This document shows positions 21,794 to 62,912 of a stretch of 64,000 nt of DNA, in pieces. The first letter of the stretch is position 1; each line of letters starts with the position of its first letter. A model generated the notes under the pieces. That model saw only the letters and a program-made list of their open reading frames with translations. It was not told the origin of the DNA and searched no databases. The DNA comes from a virus: IMG/VR virus record IMGVR_UViG_3300024999_000038, positions 62,001-126,000 of that record; one strand, 5' to 3'. A program made the position numbers and the translations under genes.

Positions 21794-21952
21794 ATGAAAC
21801 TTTATGTTACTAAAGAAGAGGCAGACAGATTAGAAAAATTAATTCAAATAATCAATAATAAATTTACTACAATAGTATCTAGGGAAATAGCTAAAACTCA
21901 ATATGAATCAACAATAAGATTTATCAAAGGCAATCGTGGTTATGAGAGATAA
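21794..21952 (+). CDS. hypothetical helical protein (52 aa)
   Basis: AAAGGAG before ATG 21794. One long charged helix and a basic end (RFIKGNRGYER). Not recognised. Confidence 0.6.
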   Translation: MKLYVTKEEADRLEKLIQIINNKFTTIVSREIAKTQYESTIRFIKGNRGYER

Positions 21953-39719: not shown

Positions 39720-40601
39720 ATGATCAGACATGTCGGATTCGCCTGTATGAGTAAAAAGTGTAACACTAAATATCAAACATTCCGATTAGCATCATTCAGT
39801 GAATACAGGTCGCGTCAAGCAATTGCTCACAATCTAAAAGAAACTGAGCGTACAATTCAACATTGTATTTCAGAAGGAATTAAATTATTCAGAATAAGTT
39901 CTGATTTAGTTCCATTTGCTACACATGAAATCATGAAAGATATTGATTATATTTCTTGGATTGAATCTGATTTAAAAAGGATTGGTGATATAGCAAGAAA
40001 TAATAATATGCTATTATCTATGCATCCATCTCAAATGTGTTGTATAAACAGTCCAAAACAAGAAGTTGTAAATAATTCTATCAAAGATTTAATGTATCAT
40101 TATGATATTCTTAATACTATGGGCCTTACTGATTTTAATATTATCATTCATGTTGGTGGAGTTTATGGTAATAAATTAGAAGCAAAGAAGAGATTTGTTA
40201 GTGTATTTAATAGTTTGCCTGTTGATTTAAGAAATCATATCTTGCTTGAGAATGATGACAAAAGTTATACTGTTAATGATATAATGGAAATACACAAAGA
40301 AACTGGAGTTAGACTAGTGCTAGATTTTCACCACAATGTTTGTAATAATGATGGGACAGAATTAGATTTAGAAGCTGTATTTGCCACTTGTGGGGTTGGT
40401 AAAGTACCTAAGATACATCTTAGTTCACCTAAGAGTATTAAAGAGTTCAGAAGTCATTCTGACATGATTGATTATGAATATTGTAGAGAGTTCTTTGAGA
40501 AGTATAAGGGATTAGAATTTGATGTTATGATTGAGGCTAAGGATAAGGATTTAGCTGTAGAGAAGTTTATTGAGGATTATAGGAGGGAGATGAGATTATG
40601 A
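39720..40601 (+). CDS. uvsE: UV-damage endonuclease UvsE/UVDE (293 aa)
   Basis: Full-length UvdE-family TIM-barrel protein: N-terminal IRHVGFACMSKK, then RISSDLVPFATHEI (about 60-73), LLSMHPSQM (about 98-106), IIHVGGVYGNK (about 140-150), LLENDDK (about 174-180), LVLDFHHN (about 200-207) and KIHLSSP (about 234-240). His/Glu/Asp ligands of the metal cluster are in place. UVDE nicks 5' of UV photoproducts without cyclobutane specificity; in spore formers it repairs UV-damaged spores. Driven by the promoter at 39648. Phage carriage would aid repair of phage or host spore DNA. Confidence 0.9.
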   Translation: MIRHVGFACMSKKCNTKYQTFRLASFSEYRSRQAIAHNLKETERTIQHCISEGIKLFRISSDLVPFATHEIMKDIDYISWIESDLKRIGDIARNNNMLLSMHPSQMCCINSPKQEVVNNSIKDLMYHYDILNTMGLTDFNIIIHVGGVYGNKLEAKKRFVSVFNSLPVDLRNHILLENDDKSYTVNDIMEIHKETGVRLVLDFHHNVCNNDGTELDLEAVFATCGVGKVPKIHLSSPKSIKEFRSHSDMIDYEYCREFFEKYKGLEFDVMIEAKDKDLAVEKFIEDYRREMRL

Positions 40602-41644: not shown

Positions 41645-42160
41645 ATGAAATCAACAGGTATTATTAGGAGAATAGATGACTTAGGAAGGGTAGTAATTCT
41701 TAAAGAAATTAGACGAACTTTAAGGATTCATGAAGGAGATCCAATGGAATTATGTGTGCATGAAGGTGGAGTATTTTTAAAGAAGTATTCTGCATTAGGT
41801 GAAATGATAGATTATGCTCAAAACTTTGCTGATACATTATTTGAACAAACTGGCCATATTGCTTTAATTTGTGATAGCGATGTTGTAATTGCTGTATCTG
41901 GAACGTCAAAAAGAGATTTTTTAAATAAACCAATTTGGAATTTAGCATCTAAAGCAATGGAAGAAAGATTAACATTAACTGGCCTTAAAGATGGAATACA
42001 AGAAGAATTTGAATATGAAAATCAAATTGTTACACCAGTAATTTGTGAAGGTGATGTAGTAGGAGCAATAGGGTTAGTAGCGAAAGAAGAAGTTGGAATT
42101 GTAGAACAAAAACTAGTTCAATCTGTTGCAAGATTTTTAGCGAAACAAATGGGACAATAA
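41645..42160 (+). CDS. spoVT: SpoVT homologue (AbrB-type DNA-binding plus GAF-like domain, 171 aa)
   Basis: N-terminal MKSTGIIRRIDDLGRVVILKEIRRTLRIHEGDPMEL is almost the Bacillus SpoVT/AbrB swapped-hairpin DNA-binding domain (residues 1-50). The rest follows SpoVT's GAF-like domain (GHIALICDSDVVIAVSG; VGAIGLVAKEE; ARFLAKQMGQ at the end). B. subtilis SpoVT (about 178 residues) controls genes in the forespore under SigmaG. The usual Pro in VIPKEIRR is Leu (VILKEIRR). Phage carriage could let the phage read or alter sporulation timing; that is inference. Confidence 0.9.
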   Translation: MKSTGIIRRIDDLGRVVILKEIRRTLRIHEGDPMELCVHEGGVFLKKYSALGEMIDYAQNFADTLFEQTGHIALICDSDVVIAVSGTSKRDFLNKPIWNLASKAMEERLTLTGLKDGIQEEFEYENQIVTPVICEGDVVGAIGLVAKEEVGIVEQKLVQSVARFLAKQMGQ

Positions 42161-52326: not shown

Positions 52327-52758
52327 ATGCAAGTAGTAAATAAAGTTGCACAACATAATCAACCACAACAATTTAATAGAGGAGACATTTACTTAGCTAC
52401 AGTTGAAAATAATGTCGGAGGGTCAGTGCAAAATATTTGTCAGAGACCAATGATTATAATTTCAAATCCTATGAGTTTACTGCACTCGCCTGTGATTCAC
52501 GCAATTCCATTATCTTCTAAGACTTTTAAGCGATGGATTCCAACTCACGTTTCTGTACCTATGGCTAGTAGTGGTTTATTAAAGGATTCAATTGCACTTT
52601 GCGAACAAGTAATGTTGCTCCCGAAAGAGGTTTTTAGTAAAAAAATTGGCACATGCAGTAGTTTAATTGTAAACAAATTAGAAGAGGGTTTAATGGTACA
52701 ATTCGGGTTGTTTAATCATAGTCAAAATGTAAGAAACAATGTTGCTTATGCAAATTAA
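52327..52758 (+). CDS. MazF/PemK-like protein (143 aa)
   Basis: Residues about 16-125 follow the MazF fold: NRGDIYLATVENNVGG, QRPMIIISN (Arg40 corresponds to the catalytic Arg), HAIPLSSKTFKRWIPTHVSV, SIALCEQVMLLPKEVF. The catalytic Thr of MazF is Ser63 here, so ribonuclease activity may be weakened or lost. The last residues (NNVAYAN) resemble the end of the HTH-MazF fusion at 56272 (QQVAYAR). No antitoxin gene precedes it; the upstream 140 bases carry only a weak promoter-like TTGACG. Ends 22 bases before the homing-nuclease gene. Confidence 0.7.
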   Translation: MQVVNKVAQHNQPQQFNRGDIYLATVENNVGGSVQNICQRPMIIISNPMSLLHSPVIHAIPLSSKTFKRWIPTHVSVPMASSGLLKDSIALCEQVMLLPKEVFSKKIGTCSSLIVNKLEEGLMVQFGLFNHSQNVRNNVAYAN

Positions 52759-52780: not shown

Positions 52781-54379
52781 TTGGGGAAAATGAAAACTAC
52801 AGAACAGTATAGACAAGATTTAGAAGAATACAATTTAAAATATAATACAAAAATAGAGTTAAAGAATGGAGTTGAATATAATGGTGCTAATACTAAAATA
52901 TTACATATTTGTTCGTGTGGTAAAGAGTGGTTAGTTTCACCTTCAGGCGTTATAAATAGTAGTTCGAAAACAAGTTGTGGTTATACGTTTGCAGAAAAAG
53001 GAATCGATAATCTAGGGTATAATTTTTTAGAAAAATATTGGGATTATAAAACAAATAACGAATTAGGAATTGATCCTTGGAAAATTAGTTGTAGTTCTGG
53101 AAAAGAAGTTTATATATTTTGCCAAGAGAAAGATTATCATGGAAGTTATAAAGTACGTTGTGCTGATTTTAGTAATGGAAACAGGTGTGGTTATTGTCAA
53201 GGATACTATTTGGTTCATCCTTTAGATAGTTATGGACAGTATTTAATTGATTCATTTGGAATAACCGCACTAGAACTGTATTGGGATTATAATATAAACA
53301 CTGTTGATCCTTGGAAGATTACAAAACAATCAAATAAGATGGTATATATTAAATGTCAGAGGAAATATTATCATGGAAGTTATGGCATCAGGTGCAATGA
53401 TTTTATAAAAGGAGATAGATGTGGATATTGTGGAGGTAAAAAAGTACATCTATTAGATAGTCTAGGAACGTTACATCCAAAATCACTAGAATTATGGTCA
53501 AATATAAACGAAAAATCCCCATATGAATATATGCCTGGGAGCGATATGGAGGTTTGGTTTAAATGTGACAACAAGAGACATGAAGATTACCAAAAAAGAA
53601 TATATAATGCAGTAAACTGTAATTTTGGATGTCCGACATGTTCACAAGAACAAAAAGAATCTATCATGGCCTCCACACTAAAACAAGTACTAAGATATGA
53701 ATATAGTCACACAAAATGGGAATATGATGCAGGATTTAAAATAGATAATAGTATTAGTAGGTATGATATTTATGTTCCAGAATTGAATAACTTATTAATA
53801 GAATGCCAAAGTGAATATCACGATGATGAAAAACATATTATTAACGATCAACTTAAAAAACAGTTTGCTATTGATAATGGATATGAATATATAGCAATAG
53901 ACAAAAGAGATTTTTCCATAATAGAAATACTAAGGTTCTTTATACCATACATGGATAAAATTCCTGATTATGTACAATTAAATAAAAATACTACAAGAGG
54001 TTGGGATATAGAAAACGCTCAAAAATTGTTAGATAGTGGTCATACATATATAAATATAGCTAATATATTAGAAACATCAGTTACCGCGATACGTGCAAGT
54101 GTAGGAGACAATGGGTTAATCAAACCAAATAATTATACTTTTCAAGGTGAAAATATTGTTTGTCTGTCTATGGATAATAGTTTAATAAAAACATATAATT
54201 CTTGCAGTTCTGCCGCCAAAGATTTAGGAAAAGCAAATGGAACAAGTATTAGTTCATGTCTAACTAAGAAGCCTCGTTCAGACACAGGGAAAATTCGTGA
54301 AACAGCTTTTGGTTTTAAATGGATGTATTTAGTAGATTATGAAAATATGATTAAAGATCAAAATAATAAACCTCCGTAA
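52781..54379 (+). CDS. zinc-ribbon plus EDxHD-type homing nuclease with NUMOD-like tail (532 aa), TTG start
   Basis: AAGGAGAG fits TTG 52781. Three treble-clef/zinc-ribbon repeats span residues about 35-290 (CSCGKEW, then CQEKDYHGSYKVRCADF ... GNRCGYCQG, then the related CQRKYYHGSYGIRCNDF ... GDRCGYCGG, then CDNKRHEDYQKRI ... CPTC). A nuclease core follows (about 310-390): RYDIYVPELNNLLIECQSEYHDDEKHII ... QFAIDNGYEYIAIDKRDF, matching the EDxHD family related to Vsr and I-Bth0305I. A helix-turn-helix (about 415-440) and a NUMOD1-like segment (VCLSMDNSLIKTYNSCSSAAKDLGK) end the protein. Typical free-standing homing nuclease, located directly upstream of the signalling cassette. Confidence 0.75.
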   Translation: MGKMKTTEQYRQDLEEYNLKYNTKIELKNGVEYNGANTKILHICSCGKEWLVSPSGVINSSSKTSCGYTFAEKGIDNLGYNFLEKYWDYKTNNELGIDPWKISCSSGKEVYIFCQEKDYHGSYKVRCADFSNGNRCGYCQGYYLVHPLDSYGQYLIDSFGITALELYWDYNINTVDPWKITKQSNKMVYIKCQRKYYHGSYGIRCNDFIKGDRCGYCGGKKVHLLDSLGTLHPKSLELWSNINEKSPYEYMPGSDMEVWFKCDNKRHEDYQKRIYNAVNCNFGCPTCSQEQKESIMASTLKQVLRYEYSHTKWEYDAGFKIDNSISRYDIYVPELNNLLIECQSEYHDDEKHIINDQLKKQFAIDNGYEYIAIDKRDFSIIEILRFFIPYMDKIPDYVQLNKNTTRGWDIENAQKLLDSGHTYINIANILETSVTAIRASVGDNGLIKPNNYTFQGENIVCLSMDNSLIKTYNSCSSAAKDLGKANGTSISSCLTKKPRSDTGKIRETAFGFKWMYLVDYENMIKDQNNKPP

Positions 54380-54430: not shown

Positions 54431-55048
54431 ATGGTTGAAACATTAATATTTAGTCTGCTGTGTCTAAAAACAAAATTTGATCTAAAACTAGGCAAACTCC
54501 AAATACATAAAGAATCATACCTAATAAAACCAATGCTAAAAAGATGGAGCATCTATCCTGTAATATTTATGTCAATATTCTATGTCTATCTACAATACAC
54601 AATAATGAATCAGAATTACTATTTTCTTCAATATCAACACATAATAAAGAATGCTATATTAGGTTCATATATGATTCTAGGGCTTGATGTTTTGTTTAGG
54701 CATGAAAAGTATAAAGAGTATATTATAGCCTGTTGTAGTCTCTTGTGTGGCTTTACATTGAATAAGATTGTAATGCATTTCAATAATAATCTCATGCCAA
54801 TCTTCCCATCAATATCTTATTCAACAGGTTACACGCAATATGGTATGATTACGAATGCTTCTAAATTTAGCGATTTTCATGTTCTCGGAGATCATACAAC
54901 AAGATTGATATTTTTGGCCGATGTGTTTGATATAGGTGGTAGCATTTGGTCGGTCGGGGATATTTTAGTTAGATTATTTGCTTTTATAATTGTGTATTAT
55001 GCGGGTAAAGTAGTTAGTAAAATGCATACGAACAAAATATTGAATTAA
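54431..55048 (+). CDS. DUF5317-like membrane protein (205 aa)
   Basis: AAAGGAGAG upstream. N-terminal MVETLIFSLLCLKTKFDLKLGKLQIH and four to five hydrophobic segments; the C-terminal stretch FHVLGDHTTRLIFLADVFDIGGSIWSVGDILVRLFAFIIVYY is the DUF5317 signature (T-R/L-x-FLADxF ... x-SxGDxLI). Role unknown. It is divided from the peptide-receptor-like gene by a promoter at 55065, so linkage to the Agr cassette is positional only. Confidence 0.7.
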   Translation: MVETLIFSLLCLKTKFDLKLGKLQIHKESYLIKPMLKRWSIYPVIFMSIFYVYLQYTIMNQNYYFLQYQHIIKNAILGSYMILGLDVLFRHEKYKEYIIACCSLLCGFTLNKIVMHFNNNLMPIFPSISYSTGYTQYGMITNASKFSDFHVLGDHTTRLIFLADVFDIGGSIWSVGDILVRLFAFIIVYYAGKVVSKMHTNKILN

Positions 55049-55133: not shown

Positions 55134-55955
55134 ATGCAGAGTGTAACAAATGCTTTGTTGAATACAGTATTTGTAAGTTTACCAGAGGAAACATTTTACG
55201 CAATGATGACATTGATATTTTTGAAAAGATATGATCTATTAGATTTTAGAATGTGGAAAGAAAACATTACAACACTTATGATACCTATAATTCCAGTATC
55301 AATATTAATTAATATATTTAGATATATTATAATTATAGATAAAATACAAATGATGATTATTACAATAGTGATATTTTACATATTGTTATTATATATTGTT
55401 ATAAAATATAAAGTTGAAGATATTGAAAGAATACATATGAAAGTTTTATTAAACTTAGCATATAGCGTAGCAATATGGGTGTTCTTAGAAGAGATAACCT
55501 ATCCATCATTATTGTTTTTGATGAATTACCCACTCGAATTTATATCAAATAATATATTTTGGAATTTTATTTTAAGTGTTCCTTCAAGGATAATTGCTAT
55601 GGTTATAATAATATACAACATAGTTAAAAATAGTAACGAAATAAGCAATATAGAAGTTCTTGACGTCATTACTAATAATAAACTTTATCGAAGAATAATG
55701 CTTTTCTGCACAATGTCATTTATTTTATTATCATTATTCTTAATTAAACTTATTTGGTGTAATAAAATATTTGACAATAAGGTTCCTTTGTTTGAAAAGA
55801 TTATTATTACTGAATCGCTTTTTGTTTTGCCAGTAGTTGTAATATTCCTAATAATTATATTAATCAACAATCTTCTTGTAAAAGAAAAACAAATACAACA
55901 GTCTTATGAAAATCTTGTTATGCAAGACGACATAATGCTTGATGTAGAAGATTGA
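55134..55955 (+). CDS. polytopic membrane protein, kinase-less AgrC-like (273 aa)
   Basis: Six to seven hydrophobic helices over residues 1-245, then a charged cytoplasmic tail (VKEKQIQQSYENL ... DDIMLDVED) with no histidine-kinase or ATPase domain. The N-terminus SVTNALLNTVFVSLPEETFYAMMTLIFLKR matches the paralogue at 57957 (SITNAVLNLLFVSIPEEAFIAIIAITFLNK) and resembles N-terminal helices of AgrC-type receptors (F-V-S-x-P-E-E). It ends 22 bases before agrD on one transcript from 55065. Best guess: a cyclic-peptide receptor or exporter partner that signals by another route. Confidence 0.7.
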   Translation: MQSVTNALLNTVFVSLPEETFYAMMTLIFLKRYDLLDFRMWKENITTLMIPIIPVSILINIFRYIIIIDKIQMMIITIVIFYILLLYIVIKYKVEDIERIHMKVLLNLAYSVAIWVFLEEITYPSLLFLMNYPLEFISNNIFWNFILSVPSRIIAMVIIIYNIVKNSNEISNIEVLDVITNNKLYRRIMLFCTMSFILLSLFLIKLIWCNKIFDNKVPLFEKIIITESLFVLPVVVIFLIIILINNLLVKEKQIQQSYENLVMQDDIMLDVED

Positions 55956-55977
55956 TATGAAAGGAGGTGAAAAATTA

Positions 55978-56094
55978 ATGAAAAAGTACGCAATTATCGC
56001 TGGAGTGGTTGCTTTGTCAGCCGCAATGTTCTCAAATGTATTTGCTTCTATGTTCTTTTCTCATCAACCAAAAACTCCTAATTGCATGAAATAA
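55978..56094 (+). CDS. agrD: AgrD-type cyclic autoinducer peptide precursor (38 aa)
   Basis: AAAGGAGGTG sits before ATG 55978. N-terminal amphipathic/hydrophobic leader (about 1-22), then SMFFSHQPKTP. Aligning HQPKTP with the YEPKSP cleavage motif of Listeria AgrD (ring CFMFV) places a five-residue ring Ser24-Met-Phe-Phe-Ser28 just before it, so the ring would be a Ser lactone rather than Cys thiolactone. C-terminal tail NCMK is short (S. aureus-like tails are longer). The terminator right after (56107) isolates this transcript from agrB. Confidence 0.8.
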   Translation: MKKYAIIAGVVALSAAMFSNVFASMFFSHQPKTPNCMK

Positions 56095-56106
56095 TTTTAC
56101 CATACA

Positions 56107-56136
56107 TATAGGGAAGGACTTCGGTTCTTCCCTATA
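56107..56136 (+). terminator. terminator after agrD (TTCG tetraloop)
   Basis: TATAGGGAAGGAC pairs with GTTCTTCCCTATA (one G-U, 13 bp) around the stable tetraloop TTCG, 12 bases after the agrD stop. No long T-tract follows; strength comes from the stem. It separates the receptor-like/agrD unit from the HTH-MazF/agrB unit. Confidence 0.8.
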
Positions 56137-56176
56137 AATCTAATATAAAATATTTTATAAATTTACTAAAAATCTA

Positions 56177-56204
56177 TTGACATATCTCCCAAATATGGTA
56201 AGAT
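56177..56204 (+). promoter_or_regulatory. promoter of the HTH-MazF/agrB unit
   Basis: TTGACA (56177-56182), 16-base spacer, TAAGAT (56199-56204). The spacer holds an imperfect repeat CATAT...ATATG and ends ATATGGTA, shared with the promoter at 55088. The HTH-MazF protein encoded downstream could bind here. Confidence 0.65.
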
Positions 56205-56271
56205 GTATTTAATGAAGTTGTAAATAAATTATATATACATCATTATAAATTGAAAAGGGAGTTGTGTTATT

Positions 56272-57060
56272 ATGTTTGAAAAATTTATTGGTAAAAAAGA
56301 GAGTACTATTACTGAGGAGAATACAAAAAAGGATTTCAAAAAGTTGGCTACATATGTTACTTTAGCCAAAGGCCCAAGAACTATTAATGGATTCGCAGCA
56401 GACTGCAAAACAAATGCTGACTATCTAGCTGATATTATCCATGTAAAAATCAATTCTTATCCTCAAGTTCAATTTCTGAAAATAATATCTGAAAATTCAC
56501 AAGGCAGAGTTTCATTAGATGATCTTAAATTATCTTGTGGATATTCTTTATATGAACATAATGATATGGAGCAAATAAAAAATATTAATGTTCGCAGAGG
56601 ATGGTTTTGTTACGTAAATCTAGGCCAAGTTTTGGACTCGGAATATGGGGGAAATCGAATGTGTTTGGTAGTGCAAAACGACGTAGGGAATCATTTCTCA
56701 AGCACATCAATTATTTTACCATTGACTTCTAGAAAATCAAAAGTAAAGCTTCCTACTCACGTCGAAGTTGGAATAAAAAATTGCGGATTACCGCAAGATT
56801 CGATTGTTAGTTGTGAGCAAATTCGTTGCGTATCGAAAAGGAGACTTATTCAAAATGGAATAGTCCAGAAAGTATCAGAATGTCCTCCAGATGTAATGTT
56901 AAAGGTAGAGGTGGCTTTATTAAAAGCACAAGGAGTTATACATCTTAAAATGAATGAACAGGAAGCTATTCAGCACTTAATGAACATGAATACCCAAAAA
57001 ACATACCAGTATCAAAATAATTATGCTAGTGCAGGACAGCAGGTGGCCTATGCACGATAA
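56272..57060 (+). CDS. XRE-type HTH fused to MazF (262 aa)
   Basis: Residues about 24-92 match the phage-type Cro/CI domain (LAKGPRTINGFAADCKTNADYLADIIHVKI ... FLKIISENSQGRVSLDDLKLSCGY). Residues about 107-225 match MazF: RRGWFCYVNLGQVLDSEYGGNR, CLVVQNDVGNHFSSTSIILPLTSR, LPTHVEVGIKNCGLPQDSIVSCEQIRC. The catalytic Arg129 and Thr152 of MazF are kept, so ribonuclease activity is plausible. The C-terminal VAYAR tail matches the smaller MazF at 52327. Fusing a DNA-binding domain to the toxin gives an autoregulated or antitoxin-free unit, and it lies between agrD and agrB. Confidence 0.8.
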   Translation: MFEKFIGKKESTITEENTKKDFKKLATYVTLAKGPRTINGFAADCKTNADYLADIIHVKINSYPQVQFLKIISENSQGRVSLDDLKLSCGYSLYEHNDMEQIKNINVRRGWFCYVNLGQVLDSEYGGNRMCLVVQNDVGNHFSSTSIILPLTSRKSKVKLPTHVEVGIKNCGLPQDSIVSCEQIRCVSKRRLIQNGIVQKVSECPPDVMLKVEVALLKAQGVIHLKMNEQEAIQHLMNMNTQKTYQYQNNYASAGQQVAYAR

Positions 57061-57076
57061 AAGAAAGGAAGATTAA

Positions 57077-57784
57077 ATGTTTTCAGTTCAAGATATTTCT
57101 GATCAATTGGCTACTAAACTATCAAAAAAAATATCATTAGATAAATTTAAAGAAGTTTGGGGGATCGTTATAAAAATATTCCCATCACTTGCTGATAAGC
57201 TTAATCTTGAACAAATAAAATCAATAAATGACTTATTAGGTTTATATAGTTATGGGATAACGGTATTTGTAGGATTACTATTCAAAGGCCCATTATTGAT
57301 TATAATATCAATTATCTTTGGAATATTTACACCAATTATGTTTGTGGTAACCACATTTTCAAGTTTTAGGGTTGTAGCAGGTGGTTACCATATGCAGACA
57401 TATTTAAGGTGTTGGATTGTAAGTTTTGTCACATTTATTGGATCTGCACTTATAGTCCAACACACACTTCAATATTGGTCTACCCAAAATATCTCTTCAC
57501 TCTTCATATTTTGTATTTTAATGGGATTATATATAATTTTTAGATATATTCCTCGCGACACACCCAATAAGCCAATTACAGAGCCATTGGAGATAGCAAA
57601 GTTTAAAAAATGGTCGTTATACTACTTAATTTCATGGGTAACAATAATGACCATTTTCTTATTCTTTAATCTAAAATTAATTGTTATTTCAAGTTGTTTT
57701 GGATTATTATTGGAATTATTTTCAATAAGTAAAATTGGTTATAGTCTATATTCCCTTGTAGATGATATTGGTATACATAAATAA
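57077..57784 (+). CDS. agrB: AgrB-family peptide-processing protease (235 aa)
   Basis: GAAAGGAAG before ATG 57077, 16 bases after the HTH-MazF stop (same operon). RVVAGGYHMQTYLRC contains the conserved His105 and Cys112 (spacing 7, as His77/Cys84 of S. aureus AgrB), with four to six transmembrane helices around them. The N-terminal 45 residues extend beyond typical AgrB (about 190-210 residues). AgrB cleaves AgrD at its C-terminus and closes the ring; it should act on the agrD product at 55978. Confidence 0.9.
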   Translation: MFSVQDISDQLATKLSKKISLDKFKEVWGIVIKIFPSLADKLNLEQIKSINDLLGLYSYGITVFVGLLFKGPLLIIISIIFGIFTPIMFVVTTFSSFRVVAGGYHMQTYLRCWIVSFVTFIGSALIVQHTLQYWSTQNISSLFIFCILMGLYIIFRYIPRDTPNKPITEPLEIAKFKKWSLYYLISWVTIMTIFLFFNLKLIVISSCFGLLLELFSISKIGYSLYSLVDDIGIHK

Positions 57785-57956
57785 TATCTCACAAACCACC
57801 TTACTATCCCACCTTATCCCATAATTGCAATACTTTATTCAATTTATTTTTCCAACATTTATGATATATTTACAGCAACAAGTAATAGCACATAATAACT
57901 GCCCCTTACTCAAACCACACCCACAAACTAAATAAAAAGAAGGAAGGAAACCCTAT
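57785..57956 (+). other. C-rich, G-poor leader between agrB and the second membrane gene
   Basis: These 172 bases contain C-rich patches (CTTACTATCCCACCTTATCCC and CCCCTTACTCAAACCACACCC) that stand out in this G-biased strand. A weak promoter-like TATATT occurs near 57872. No ORF or strong stem-loop is apparent. It may be an untranslated leader or a decayed gene. Confidence 0.4.
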
Positions 57957-58820
57957 ATGTCTATTACCAATGCTGTACTAAATCTACTATTTGTCTCCAT
58001 CCCAGAAGAAGCATTTATAGCAATAATAGCTATAACATTCCTAAATAAACTAGATAATCTTTTCGATATCTATATGTGGAAGAACAATCTCAAATGGCTT
58101 ATGATAGCAACATTGCCCACATCAATATTAATTTGTGTTTTACGATTTGTAATGTCTGTTCCCCAAAATATTGTAGTAAAATTAGCCATAATTATAATGA
58201 TTGCTTCAATGATATACATAGTAATTAAAAACTCTGACAAAATTACTATTCTATTAATATTTAAAACAGCAATGTTTACATTAGCAGGATTTGTAATTAC
58301 AGGAATATTGGAATACTCATATTGCCCAATAATATTCTCATTATTACATAAACCACAAGAATTTTTTAATAATGTTTTCCTCTATAATTTTCTATTAGGT
58401 TTACCTGCAAGAGTCCTTTACACCTGTATTATCACTTTTATCATAATGAAGAAAAATGGCAAAGTTAAAGTAAATTTATTTGATACTTTAGTCAAAAGCA
58501 AATTAATCATTGGTATTTTCATTGCTACAATATTATCTGTAGTTTCATTAATTGCCTATGTTGCTAAATTGATAGAAAATGAAAGCATTTTGTTTAGTTT
58601 TCAATTCATTGATCAATTTATTATCATTGTAATAATCACATCTGTACCAACTATTTTAATCACATTGTTATTGATAGTTATTAATTATTTAATATCAGGT
58701 GAGAAGGAAAATCAGCAAATGTACGAGAATGCTATGGGTAGTAGGGATGAGAATGAGGATATAAATGAGGATGGTAATAATAGTAGCGATGAAGATATTT
58801 ATGAAAATTATTATGAATAA
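57957..58820 (+). CDS. polytopic membrane protein, kinase-less AgrC-like paralogue (287 aa)
   Basis: AGAAGGAAGG upstream. Same architecture as the protein at 55134: SITNAVLNLLFVSIPEEAF start, six to seven hydrophobic helices, then a cytoplasmic tail EKENQQMYENAMGSRDENED that keeps the EKxxQQxYEN motif and adds about 25 acidic residues. No kinase domain. It could sense a second peptide or antagonise the first protein. Its 3' neighbour position, where agrD sits in the first copy, has only a two-codon frame. Confidence 0.7.
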   Translation: MSITNAVLNLLFVSIPEEAFIAIIAITFLNKLDNLFDIYMWKNNLKWLMIATLPTSILICVLRFVMSVPQNIVVKLAIIIMIASMIYIVIKNSDKITILLIFKTAMFTLAGFVITGILEYSYCPIIFSLLHKPQEFFNNVFLYNFLLGLPARVLYTCIITFIIMKKNGKVKVNLFDTLVKSKLIIGIFIATILSVVSLIAYVAKLIENESILFSFQFIDQFIIIVIITSVPTILITLLLIVINYLISGEKENQQMYENAMGSRDENEDINEDGNNSSDEDIYENYYE

Positions 58821-59020: not shown

Positions 59021-59101
59021 AATATCAAGGAGGTATTGAAAGAACAAAGATATAATTTGTTGAATATCCAAATATTAGAAAATAAAGGAGAGATTTTAAA
59101 T

Positions 59102-59509
59102 ATGAATTGTATTAAAACAGAAGACAATGTGAGATATACATGGGCCATCAAAGATTCAAAAGGTAATTTTGCCCATAAGGGCAGTATACGTAAAATCAAT
59201 AAAGATACTTGGCAATACATATCGTTTAAGACATTCTCCCAAGAAGCTAGGGGATACACATCCAAGGAATCTGCTGAAAAAGCATTGGCTTTCTTAAATA
59301 AAAAGAATGACATTGCAGGATTCAAATTTGTTTTTCATATTGAGTGTCTTAACTTAAATAAAATAATTGATGAAAACACCATATTCCAAGGTAAAAATAT
59401 GCTTATATATGAAAAAGAAGTGGTATCAGCTGCTTATAAAATGGGAAAAGTGGCAAAAACATGTGTCTGTACATGTTTACCAACTCTAATATTAGCCAGT
59501 ATAATTTAA
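59102..59509 (+). CDS. hypothetical protein with hydrophobic C-terminus (135 aa)
   Basis: AAAGGAGAG upstream of ATG 59102; an in-frame TTG at 59036 with its own AAGGAGG could add 22 residues. Alpha/beta N-terminal domain (WAIKDSKGNFAHKGSIRKINKDTWQYIS) and a Cys/Thr-rich end (VAKTCVCTCLPTLILASII). No family recognised. Lies between the Agr cassette and the repressor operon. Confidence 0.65.
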   Translation: MNCIKTEDNVRYTWAIKDSKGNFAHKGSIRKINKDTWQYISFKTFSQEARGYTSKESAEKALAFLNKKNDIAGFKFVFHIECLNLNKIIDENTIFQGKNMLIYEKEVVSAAYKMGKVAKTCVCTCLPTLILASII

Positions 59510-59587: not shown

Positions 59588-59617
59588 TTGACATTATTGC
59601 ACAACTCATGTTATTAT
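59588..59617 (+). promoter_or_regulatory. promoter of the YopQ/MrpR-like operon
   Basis: TTGACA (59588-59593), 18-base spacer, TATTAT (59612-59617) with TGT just before it (extended -10). Perfect -35 consensus. Drives 59650 and probably 61037-63788. Confidence 0.75.
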
Positions 59618-59649: not shown

Positions 59650-61020
59650 ATGCTTAAAGAAAAATCGGTTGCACTCATGAGGGAACTAAATGTGTTAATT
59701 AAGAAGTATAGTTCAAACGACAAGGTAAGAAAATTAATTGTAGAAGAATTTGATAAAAGAAATATGAAGGGCAGTTTAGCGGTCGGCATCTTAAATGAAA
59801 ATAGAGAGCTATCCACATTAGATATTGATGAAAGCAAAGATGTAATAATGTTATTTATTTTCACTATGAGTATGTATAATGCATTGACATATAAAGAGGA
59901 AGAAGATAAAGAGGCGTTGGGAGAAATTGAAGAAGGGTTAAGAATTGATCCTAAAAATTATTTTACTGAAATTGAAATTGAAAACCTAAATGACTATAAG
60001 TTTGAAAAGAAAATAGACAAAAAAGACGAAGTTATTATTTTCCCCAAAATGAGTAGAATTGCCCCTGATTTCTTTTCAGGCTATATGTCAGGAAAGCATT
60101 TTGCAGAATTAGATGCAGGAAATGAATTTATCTATAATTTTAAGACTCAGCGTGACCCAATTATTGATGTATCTGGAATGAAGAGGATACATTTAAATAA
60201 AACAAATGCAAAAGAAATTAGAGATGGCCTAATCTCAAAGAATCAATTCCCAACTACCATAGTAGTAAATGTTCTTAAAGACGGTGAAGACGAGATATAT
60301 TATGATGAGAAAACAGGCGATTTGTCTATTATTTCAGGTACTAAAAACCTTGTTGATGGAATGCATAGAAAAGTTGGTAATAGTTTGGCTCTCGCTATTG
60401 ATCCAGACTTGGAGTTTAATTGGTTATTAGTTGTAACAAACTATAGTGAAATTAGAGCACAAAAATATATGGTGGAAATTAACAAGCAACAAAAAATGAA
60501 ACAAGAACATATTAAAAATATGGATACTGCCAGTCTTGGAAATATTGTTGTTGATGTTATTAAAGATATCAATAGTTCTGAATTTGCTGGACATATCAAA
60601 GATAGCGACAAGGAATTAGAACATGGAGGTTTAACTAGGAAGTCAATTTTAACTTTAGCAATTGAGGAAATATACAAAGATAAACTTGAAAACAAAACAT
60701 TCATAAAACCTATCGCCAACCACATTACAAACGTTATGGATCATATTATTGCATTGAGAGTTGATGAGTTTATGAAATATCCTGAAGCCACACGTAAAGT
60801 AAGCTATATCAACCACAAGAATATGTTTGCAGGATATGTAGCTTTATCTGAGAGACTATATGGAGTTGAAAAATGGGATGACCTCCTTGAGGAAATTTTA
60901 GATAAAATTGATTTCAGTATGAAAAATTCTTTTTGGGAAGATATTGGATTGGGCAAAGAGTCCGATATGAAGAAAACTACACGAAACAATCTATACGAAT
61001 TCTTTCAAAAATTAATTTAA
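59650..61020 (+). CDS. DndB-like, YopQ-type protein (456 aa)
   Basis: The central motif LVDGMHRKVGNSL (Asp236-Gly-x-His239-Arg240) is the DGxHR signature of the DndB/DGQHR family; the surrounding alpha/beta region (about 130-300) fits. Length (456) and position directly before an MrpR-like gene match YopQ (about 460 residues) next to YopR in SPbeta. YopQ is implicated in the SPbeta lysogeny module, with unclear mechanism. Its relation to DNA sulfur-modification DndB is by motif only. AAGGAGAG precedes ATG 59650. Confidence 0.65.
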   Translation: MLKEKSVALMRELNVLIKKYSSNDKVRKLIVEEFDKRNMKGSLAVGILNENRELSTLDIDESKDVIMLFIFTMSMYNALTYKEEEDKEALGEIEEGLRIDPKNYFTEIEIENLNDYKFEKKIDKKDEVIIFPKMSRIAPDFFSGYMSGKHFAELDAGNEFIYNFKTQRDPIIDVSGMKRIHLNKTNAKEIRDGLISKNQFPTTIVVNVLKDGEDEIYYDEKTGDLSIISGTKNLVDGMHRKVGNSLALAIDPDLEFNWLLVVTNYSEIRAQKYMVEINKQQKMKQEHIKNMDTASLGNIVVDVIKDINSSEFAGHIKDSDKELEHGGLTRKSILTLAIEEIYKDKLENKTFIKPIANHITNVMDHIIALRVDEFMKYPEATRKVSYINHKNMFAGYVALSERLYGVEKWDDLLEEILDKIDFSMKNSFWEDIGLGKESDMKKTTRNNLYEFFQKLI

Positions 61021-61036: not shown

Positions 61037-62080
61037 ATGACTAAAAATGAAATCATTGATGAAACTAAAATCCAAGAAGTCGAAGAAAAATTAATGTTTG
61101 AAGTTGATCCTGAAGTTAAGGAAGAATTTTTAGAAAAGCAATTAAAATCAACTAGAAGTTATTATCGGTATATTTTAAAACTTGCCGATGAATTTGAAGT
61201 TAAATTAGGAAAACCAATTTACAATTTCAATACTGAAGAAAGAGATGAGTTATTGACTGTTCAATATAAAAACAAAAATATATTTGCATTTCAAACTGTT
61301 TTGTCTCCATTAAAAACTTATGTTGATTTTTGTATATCTCCTAAGAATTTAGTACGACACAATGAAAATCGCTTTAGTAGTATCCTTACTTCAAACTACA
61401 AAGTTTATATCAGTAAACAAGCAAAAGAAAATTCTTATATCCCTTTATCTGAATGTAGAGAATTTCAATCTAAATTAGCGAATTATCAAGACATGTTAAT
61501 TCTTGAATTGCCAAATCTAGGAGTTAGAGGTCGTACTGAAAAAGGAAATACTCTTGAGGAACTGGTTAATCTAAGGGAAAAAGATATTGAATGGGAGAAA
61601 AAGAGATTACATCTTACCAAAAACAATGGTGAAGAAAGATGGATTGAAGTTGATGATTACACTTTAGATTTACTCAAGAAAACCATCAATCAAGATTTTT
61701 ATATATCCAATAATGGATTAAAGACAAAACCGAACGACGATGGGGTATATGAACGTACAGAAAGGGGAAGAATGATTAATAAAACTGAATATGTATTTAG
61801 AATTCCAGGTAAGAATAAACATGGTAAGGTTGAATACCAATTTTTTGCTAGTAGAATCCAACGTATTCAAAAATGGTTAGGTAAACCGTATATTAGCATT
61901 AGTAATCTGTATTTTTCTGCTATTATAGAATACTCAAAGAAACTAAAAGAAGAGAAAGGTGAATTGATTAGAGAAGATTATATTTCAATCAATCAAAGAT
62001 TTGAATTTGGAGAAGATGGTGAGAAATATGTCTTTAAAACTAGAGAGCTTGTTGAATCATATCTTGACGATGAGAGGTAA
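61037..62080 (+). CDS. MrpR/YopR-like lytic-cycle repressor, tyrosine-recombinase fold (347 aa)
   Basis: N-terminal about 110 residues resemble an integrase SAM-like core-binding domain (LKSTRSYYRYILKLADEFEVKLGKPIYNF). The C-terminal part looks like a degenerate tyrosine-recombinase domain (LPNLGVRGRTEKGNTLEELVNLREKDIEWEKKRLHLTKNNGEERWIEV): the HxxR, second His and Tyr positions are not recognisable. SPbeta YopR (MrpR, about 325 residues) has this fold without activity and is the master repressor. Position after the DndB-like gene supports the match. Not proven by alignment. Confidence 0.65.
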   Translation: MTKNEIIDETKIQEVEEKLMFEVDPEVKEEFLEKQLKSTRSYYRYILKLADEFEVKLGKPIYNFNTEERDELLTVQYKNKNIFAFQTVLSPLKTYVDFCISPKNLVRHNENRFSSILTSNYKVYISKQAKENSYIPLSECREFQSKLANYQDMLILELPNLGVRGRTEKGNTLEELVNLREKDIEWEKKRLHLTKNNGEERWIEVDDYTLDLLKKTINQDFYISNNGLKTKPNDDGVYERTERGRMINKTEYVFRIPGKNKHGKVEYQFFASRIQRIQKWLGKPYISISNLYFSAIIEYSKKLKEEKGELIREDYISINQRFEFGEDGEKYVFKTRELVESYLDDER

Positions 62081-62085
62081 ATACT

Positions 62086-62490
62086 ATGCAGAACACACTA
62101 TCTGAGATGTGGAGAAAATACAATTTGCTTTTCTCTTTTAAAAATGAGATGAATAAACGAGGGTACGCTAGTAGGGATTTGTATAGTATCCATGTTCAAT
62201 TATGTTTGTTAATGGAATTGATTGAAATCGAAAGTATTGATATCCTAGATGATTTGTTAAAGAAAAAAACTTATTTCAGACTGTTGAGGAAAATCAATAG
62301 AGGTATTGAATATTTACATGAAATTGTAGATTTACCTGAGAATTGGTCACTTAACACTATTGAGAAAGATACGGACGCATGGATTGATCCAAATGTTCTA
62401 ATATTTACTACGAAATCAAAAGTTGCAGTATTCAGTAAATTGTCCCGTAAGAATGATGGAAGTTTGTATATTGATGGAAAATTTCAATAA
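62086..62490 (+). CDS. hypothetical helical protein (134 aa)
   Basis: Five bases after the repressor stop, with GATGAGAGG in its tail, hence cotranscribed. Helical N-terminal two thirds; C-terminus LIFTTKSKVAVFSKLSRK. Possibly an accessory of the repressor. Not recognised. Confidence 0.65.
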   Translation: MQNTLSEMWRKYNLLFSFKNEMNKRGYASRDLYSIHVQLCLLMELIEIESIDILDDLLKKKTYFRLLRKINRGIEYLHEIVDLPENWSLNTIEKDTDAWIDPNVLIFTTKSKVAVFSKLSRKNDGSLYIDGKFQ

Positions 62491-62504
62491 GAGGTGTATT
62501 TTTT

Positions 62505-62912
62505 ATGAACGTAGGAGAAAAAATTTGCCTATACAAAGAAAGATTAAACTTTAGAGACTATCAAGAATTTGGTAGAGCAGTTGGTATCAGTGGCAATTGG
62601 ATAAATGAAACATCTAAGAAATCAGAGATTAAACAAATCAACGATTTAGGTTATTTGGTTAAATTATGTGGATTTTTAGGAATAACGATAGATGAATTTT
62701 TAAGAGATGATATAATTGAAACAGATGAATCAATTGAACTTAAAATTATTGATGCAAATTCGGAAGATATTGGTATTTTGCTCAATAATATGATATTATT
62801 ACTAGGAAAGGATGGTATAAAAATAGACGGAGCGTTAATGAATGACAAGAGCAAAGAGATTTGTATAGATAGCCTTGCGGTGGTAAGAACACTAGTCAAG
62901 CAACATTTATAA
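62505..62912 (+). CDS. XRE-type helix-turn-helix protein (135 aa)
   Basis: Residues about 2-70 read as a Cro/CI-type domain (GEKICLYKERLNFRDYQEFGRAVGISGNWINETSKK ... LVKLCGFLGITIDEFLRDD), followed by an acidic and helical C-terminal part. In the repressor operon; could be a regulator of the switch. Confidence 0.7.
   Translation: MNVGEKICLYKERLNFRDYQEFGRAVGISGNWINETSKKSEIKQINDLGYLVKLCGFLGITIDEFLRDDIIETDESIELKIIDANSEDIGILLNNMILLLGKDGIKIDGALMNDKSKEICIDSLAVVRTLVKQHL

Follow-up and report, generated by a model that had tools for sequence, protein, structure and literature searches.

Known communication of the arbitrium type in lysogeny consists of the receptor AimR and a linear peptide that is taken up into the cell. 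In the IMG/VR virus record IMGVR_UViG_3300024999_000038, genes of an Agr-type peptide signalling cassette stand upstream of an SPbeta-like yopQ-mrpR repressor operon, and the question raised by this locus is whether a cyclic peptide system takes the place of arbitrium in such phages. The analysed window, meaning the whole stretch of 64,000 nucleotides, represents bases 62,001-126,000 of the 150,268-base record, which carries phage genes for a portal, a terminase-like protein, a helicase and a DNA ligase; G+C is 28.5% in the first 60 kb of the window. All coordinates are those of the window unless another record is named, and all features described below lie on the plus strand. The cassette comprises MazF1, a DUF5317 membrane protein, the membrane protein REC1, the precursor AgrD, HTH-MazF (a MazF domain behind a putative helix-turn-helix domain), the processing enzyme AgrB and, optionally, the second membrane protein REC2. 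The replacement of arbitrium by this cassette in position is well supported, and on the sequence evidence we lean towards reading the cassette as a phage peptide-communication unit of Agr chemistry that occupies the place of arbitrium within an SPbeta-like lysogeny region.

Position of the cassette upstream of yopQ-mrpR

Relatives of the cassette were sought from five anchors (REC, HTH-MazF, DUF5317, AgrB and YopQ) and were found on 20 other IMG/VR contigs; four of these share one identical locus, and the comparison was made with 18 distinct loci including that of the window. The relatives are metagenomic contigs, often incomplete (L017 is cut inside MrpR and L027 at its upstream end), and many are from one sample. 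The linkage of AgrB and AgrD to MrpR-like genes recurs in every related phage found, with the cassette placed directly upstream of yopQ-mrpR in 18 of 18 distinct loci and with YopQ and MrpR 0.1-4 kb downstream (MrpR being truncated in L017); the distance from the cassette end to YopQ is 0.8 kb in the window. The first relative found, L002, contains MazF, DUF5317, REC1, AgrD, HTH-MazF, AgrB, YopQ and MrpR. The core order REC1-AgrD-HTH-MazF is constant in all loci, and AgrB is located upstream of DUF5317 in L024-L026 and L059. Chance co-location was ruled out by the 18 of 18 distinct loci from five anchors, and the recurring gene order, together with a ratio of nonsynonymous to synonymous substitution rates (dN/dS) that stayed under 1 for all pairs tested, points to more than chance. 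The most divergent cassette, that of L051 (IMGVR_UViG_3300025117_000050), has an AgrB only 20-30% identical to the others and keeps the full order and MrpR, which suggests that the association of cassette and MrpR is old.

The repressor operon was identified by homology, in agreement with the initial annotation. The YopQ/DndB-like protein (59650..61020) matched PF14072 at 5e-7, and SPbeta yopQ was among its tblastn matches at 1e-13. The MrpR (YopR) homologue (61037..62080), of the SPbeta-type master repressor family, matched PF22822 (MrpR_N_CB) over the cut-off at 4e-13, and its family profile matched the solved SPbeta MrpR (8a0a) at 1e-31. The aimR-aimP genes, which had been said to lie near yopQ-yopR in SPbeta, hold there the same place relative to these genes as the cassette does relative to yopQ-mrpR.

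The failure of the initial annotation to find an AimR-like gene was extended from the window to the whole 150-kb record, in which the AimR model NF038310 gave no match; SPbeta, used as a positive control, scored 272 bits. AimR was likewise absent above the cut-off from the 20 cassette-bearing records. A 16-bit match below the cut-off to the N-terminal region of AimR was recorded at 21807-21950 of the record G017 and is probably an unrelated helix-turn-helix. A distant yopQ-mrpR phage, L064, carries AimR (176.7 bits) at the place of the cassette and no AgrB. Positional replacement is thus supported by three observations, namely that the cassette is always upstream of yopQ-mrpR, that AimR is absent there and that L064 has AimR without AgrB.

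AgrD and AgrB

The AgrD precursor (55978..56094) scored 22.4 bits against the NCBIfam model TIGR04223 with a cut-off of 19, and the AgrB membrane protease/exporter (57077..57784) matched PF04647 over the cut-off at 4.7e-35. The catalytic residues His105 and Cys112 of AgrB are invariant in 14 relatives, and both genes are thereby confirmed as they had been assigned at first. From these sequences we infer that AgrB and AgrD put out a cyclic peptide. The ring of the window AgrD is predicted to be Ser-Met-Phe-Phe-Ser, followed by HQPKTPNCMK; we take the ring to have five members, by analogy with the clostridial autoinducing peptides. Across the 18 loci AgrD has Ser or Cys, four hypervariable residues and then a nearly fixed [HYN]-Q-P-x-T-P-x-C, and the entropy of the four variable residues is 2.1-2.75 bits in a Q-anchored table of 18 sequences, in which the L040 AgrD was anchored one motif too early (its ring, by eye, is CRFWF). 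The predicted rings include SMFFS (the window), SWFFA, SWLFS, SWLFT, SYFIS, SAMWT, CFAAW and SMVVW. For AgrD, dN/dS was 0.05-0.17 in five of the six pairs computed and 0.72 in the sixth.

Membrane proteins

REC1 (55134..55955) is the proposed receptor, in the position of AgrC, and its AlphaFold2 (AF2) model (predicted local distance difference test score, pLDDT, of 80) has seven long helices with an extended C-terminal helix. REC2 (57957..58820) is a paralogue of REC1 with 32% identity and an acidic tail, and is optional, with 7 of 17 loci carrying it and a single fragment in addition. Neither protein has a kinase domain or a Pfam match, as expected from the initial description of two polytopic proteins lacking a kinase. 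Fold comparison of REC with PDB and BFVD gave no significant match, tblastn found no plasmid or phage relative of REC, and no close relatives of AgrB or REC1 were found among annotated phages. REC is labelled a receptor for its place, its topology and its variability, since no homology to AgrC or to a fold was detected. REC1 is encoded together with agrD in every complete locus. The AgrC-type GHKL ATPase (HATPase_c_5, PF14501) was absent from the record and from 22 others, and the search for the AgrA-type LytTR domain (PF04397) gave only a 16-bit fragment below the cut-off in G000, outside the window. The DUF5317 membrane protein (54431..55048; PF17248, 5e-17) is a conserved cassette member, present in 16 of the 17 loci with upstream DNA and lost in L048.

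MazF proteins

HTH-MazF (56272..57060), the proposed effector, consists of an N-terminal XRE-like helical domain and a MazF mRNA-interferase domain, and follows agrD directly in every locus. The MazF half of the XRE-MazF fusion first described is firm: it matched PF02452 at 3.2e-22, its fold agreed with Bacillus MazF (EndoA/YdcE, PDB 1ne8 and 4mdx) at a TMt of 0.89 and ~39-40% identity, and the catalytic R25 and T48 of Bacillus MazF are both kept, as R129 and T152, respectively. An mRNA-interferase activity is proposed from this correspondence. The XRE part is less secure. The N-terminal domain, of ~100 residues, is helical in the AF2 model. Weak matches to phrog_18248 were obtained with 5 of the 15 homologues, the strongest at 1.8e-4, and no Pfam helix-turn-helix was found in HTH-MazF. 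No MazE partner or dedicated antitoxin gene was recognised, and the matches of HTH-MazF in annotated phages span little beyond the MazF domain.

MazF1 (52327..52758; 143 amino acids) is the first gene of the exchanged block described below and was found in 16 of the 17 loci with upstream DNA. It matched a ChpB-family model of NCBIfam at 4e-4, below the cut-off, and in alignment with Bacillus subtilis MazF it keeps R25 and has Ser for T48. The C-termini of MazF1 (52755), HTH-MazF (57057) and most homologues bear tails such as -RNNVAYAN, -QVAYAR and -QVAFA, which resemble ssrA-type degrons and from which B. subtilis MazF is free.

Divergence, selection and exchange of cassettes

Two groups of YopQ and MrpR were distinguished among the cassette phages, with only ~25% identity between them. 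Pairwise identities, compared descriptively without correction for phylogeny and with many contigs sharing a sample, inter-correlated among the cassette genes at r 0.57-0.86 (0.76 for REC1 and AgrD) and between YopQ and MrpR at 0.98, and the correlation of cassette genes with YopQ or MrpR was 0.04-0.16. The flanks of the loci L047 and L048, ~1.3 kb on the upstream and ~5 kb on the downstream side, are ~100% identical in DNA, against only ~50-70% from MazF1 through AgrB, and a similar swap of the cassette beside a ~90%-identical repressor region was seen between L018 and L059. The L047/L048 pattern is, as read from the sequences, that of an exchange of signal alleles. As they are inside the swapped block of these two loci, MazF1 and DUF5317 belong to the unit, which is thus wider than originally outlined.

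The DNA identity of the window with L013 amounts to 82% for DUF5317, 48-69% for REC1 and 43-60% for the REC1 core, 67% for the AgrD ring, 84% for the MazF domain, 44% for the N-terminal half of AgrB and 84% for REC2. By this profile REC1, the most divergent cassette gene of the pair, and not REC2, varies with the signal and the processing enzyme. The values of dN/dS, all below 1, were mostly 0.05-0.4, and the cassette genes are shown to be under purifying selection.

Hairpin and promoter-like sites

An RNA hairpin, AUAGGGAAGGAC-UUCG-GUUCUUCCCUAU, is located after agrD (56108..56137; -19.4 kcal/mol, z -5.2 in the window). It is present in 13 of 13 aligned loci, with 7 of its 10 pairs covarying, 100% of cells paired and none broken. 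As a classic intrinsic terminator the hairpin was rejected, having no U-run in the window and not being listed by the terminator scan; because of the missing U-run, termination is not claimed. It may protect the receptor-signal transcript or separate it from the HTH-MazF-AgrB transcript, for which a promoter-like site (TTGACA-16-TAAGAT, 56177..56204) was noted; TTGACAT is visible at this position in relatives. The yopQ-mrpR operon is likewise preceded by TTGACA-18-TATTAT (59588..59617). Both sites were assigned by consensus only, and such consensus sites are no commoner than in shuffled sequences.

Other genes of the record

Between MazF1 and DUF5317 an HNH-type endonuclease gene (52781..54379; phrog_559, 2e-26) is a probable insertion; it has a near copy in L025, is split in L026 and is absent in L002 and L022, and HNH/homing-type genes are numerous across the record. 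ORF157 (59036..59509, coding start probably 59102) is conserved between the cassette and the repressor operon and has no family match. Two small genes downstream of MrpR (62086-62912) are conserved with one MrpR group, and the second weakly matches phrog_8 (phage regulator) at 0.0019. A serine integrase was matched in two cassette records (G001 and G015) and not in the window's own record, and the temperate life of the window phage is for this reason deduced from MrpR. Two further genes were read from the sequence, a UV-damage endonuclease-like one (UvsE/UvdE-like) at 39720-40601 and an AbrB/SpoVT-like transition-state regulator at 41645-42160, the latter hinting at a spore-forming Firmicute host.

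Comparison with known systems

In phi3T and SPbeta, arbitrium works by modulating host MazF via AimX, YosL and YopM/phi3T_93 (PMC10769878, PMC10516654), and the expression of phi3T aimX is controlled by a terminator (PMC10769878). The cassette resembles this system in having a receptor gene (putative here) and then a peptide gene, directly upstream of the yopM-yopR region in SPbeta/phi3T, with yopQ and MrpR downstream, in having a hairpin after agrD where SPbeta has a stem-loop after aimP, and in the involvement of MazF (PMC10769878). It differs in that its peptide is predicted to be cyclic and processed by AgrB, whereas AimP is a linear hexapeptide, in that it has membrane REC proteins and no AimR, the arbitrium receptor AimR being cytosolic, and in that its MazF is phage-encoded and fused to a helix-turn-helix-like domain. 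With bacterial AgrBDCA it shares the catalytic His/Cys of AgrB, the ring and C-terminal motif of AgrD and a polytopic protein in the place of AgrC; unlike AgrBDCA, it is without a histidine kinase domain and without AgrA/LytTR above the cut-off, has HTH-MazF and DUF5317 in addition, and sits in a phage lysogeny region. HTH-MazF, although alike with Bacillus MazF in fold, identity and catalytic Arg/Thr, has in addition its N-terminal helical domain and a C-terminal extension.

Agr genes of phages, including kinase-less ones, were reported in 2014 for phiCDHM1 (Clostridioides) and the Brevibacillus phages Davies, Emery and Abouo (PMC3901668). The phage-borne AgrB and AgrD are common to phiCDHM1 and the cassette, but phiCDHM1 has a full AgrC. 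In the Brevibacillus (then 'Paenibacillus') phages AgrB and AgrD are accompanied, as in the cassette, by one or two membrane proteins that have no ATPase domain (PMC3901668). The agr genes of Davies sit between integrase and repressor-like genes; gp44-gp48 (L072, 26243-28658) comprise membrane proteins in tandem, AgrB, a gene for a short peptide and a protein that weakly resembles LytTR. Unlike the cassette, Davies has this LytTR-like gp48 (below the cut-off) in place of HTH-MazF and no MrpR context, and gp44/gp45 showed no similarity to REC. The genes gp44-gp48 of Davies may form a kinase-less Agr circuit that was built separately and is situated in a lysogeny region. No report connecting Agr with MrpR or with the position of arbitrium was found in the literature searched, preprints and most subscription papers being outside the search; a passing mention of agr homologues in 'SPbeta-like phages' occurs in one review (PMC11945551). 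The link of phage Agr to the arbitrium/MrpR position appears to be new.

Proposed mechanism and alternative explanations

In the mechanism that is proposed here, AgrB would cut AgrD, cyclise it to a five-residue ring (a predicted Ser-Met-Phe-Phe-Ser lactone) and export the ring, and REC1 would be the strain-specific membrane receptor of the cognate ring, a role that we regard as quite probable. As no kinase is present, the message would have to pass by contact or local concentration inside the cell to HTH-MazF, which would be the most probable target because it is the sole constant cytosolic partner and always comes after agrD; the chances of its being the effector are judged to be about even. 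Its DNA-binding or mRNA-interferase activity would then shift the balance between lysis and MrpR-maintained lysogeny. In this way a signal-gated MazF encoded by the phages themselves would stand in for the host MazF; this is proposed because the MazF domain most resembles Bacillus MazF and arbitrium works via host MazF. Control of lysis-lysogeny by the cassette is considered fairly likely, and the direction of the effect, with the peptide favouring lysogeny, would follow from the analogy with arbitrium only. The complete proposal, namely a second, independently built lysis-lysogeny communication with a cyclic Agr-type peptide, a kinase-less receptor directly controlling HTH-MazF, a place in the arbitrium slot and signal alleles exchanged between phages, is put forward tentatively, with odds a little short of even.

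Several points weigh against this proposal. Divergence of the cassette is not matched by that of MrpR (r about 0.1), and k-mer and mismatch scans for an operator common to the cassette and mrpR promoters, such as the repeated SPBRE operator of the SPbeta-type MrpR module, found none, giving almost only ribosome-binding-site-like repeats. L065, Geobacillus E3, Psychrobacillus Perkons and Staphylococcus SPbeta-like 2 are yopQ-mrpR phages without AimR and without AgrB, so that a signal system is not always present in the slot. No homology of REC to AgrC or to a solved fold was detected, a host kinase could be the partner of the receptor, and the helix-turn-helix assignment of the N-terminal domain of HTH-MazF is weak. 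The cassette phages are known from metagenomic contigs alone, many of one sample; two pattern scans of 84,980 isolate genomes confirmed no cassette. The initial annotation had proposed that a cyclic peptide system replaces arbitrium in this phage and may report phage or host density to the repressor operon. The positional part of this proposal has stood; the reporting is still worded as a conjecture because of the missing co-divergence with MrpR, the missing shared operator and the yopQ-mrpR phages with neither system. The MazF domain, and not MrpR, may be the route of the output.

The independence of the cassette from the MrpR type would also fit a density-gated toxin or exclusion module, in which two MazF-type RNases are turned on by the peptide, as a signal of lysogen or phage density, against competing phages or to protect the lysogen, the phage's own lysis-lysogeny choice not being controlled and the repressor-side place reflecting prophage expression. 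Two MazF-type proteins, both with the catalytic Arg and with shared -NNVAYA/-QVAYA-like tails as possible degrons, are indeed in the block, and the block is swapped as one allelic unit. However, the strict place upstream of yopQ-mrpR across two repressor types of ~25% identity is more arbitrium-like than that of a mobile defence island, and the lack of a recognised dedicated antitoxin gene also speaks against such a module, which is considered unlikely. Somewhat less likely still is a signal directed at the host, by which the AgrBD peptide and truncated receptors would feed, mimic or jam a host AgrC/AgrA circuit and alter host behaviour, as was proposed for phiCDHM1 (PMC3901668). The absence of a kinase or response regulator from the phage and the fit of the phage AgrD to the general AgrD model agree with it, but the pairing of REC1 with agrD in every complete locus and their co-divergence imply a self-contained system, and HTH-MazF as a fixed partner after agrD is likewise unfavourable to it. 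Multi-transmembrane proteins beside a processed peptide, co-varying with its ring and lacking a signalling output domain, could finally be cognate immunity proteins (REC1 and REC2) to a cyclic peptide that inhibits competitors; the very short Agr-type ring with an Agr-specific C-terminal motif makes this very improbable, and such a unit would account neither for HTH-MazF nor for the tie to the lysogeny region.

If lysis-lysogeny communication by the cassette is true, the slot in SPbeta-like phages would be a general socket for communication, phage signalling would be extended to Agr chemistry, and kinase-less Agr signalling would be posed as a mechanism. The MazF domain connects the cassette specifically, and in a testable way, with the arbitrium-MazF pathway found recently, the allele swap of L047 and L048 is a ready test pair for signal specificity, and the predicted peptides, being five residues long, are within reach of immediate synthesis and trial. 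The finding suggests a second, chemically different way for phages to communicate about killing or sparing their hosts.

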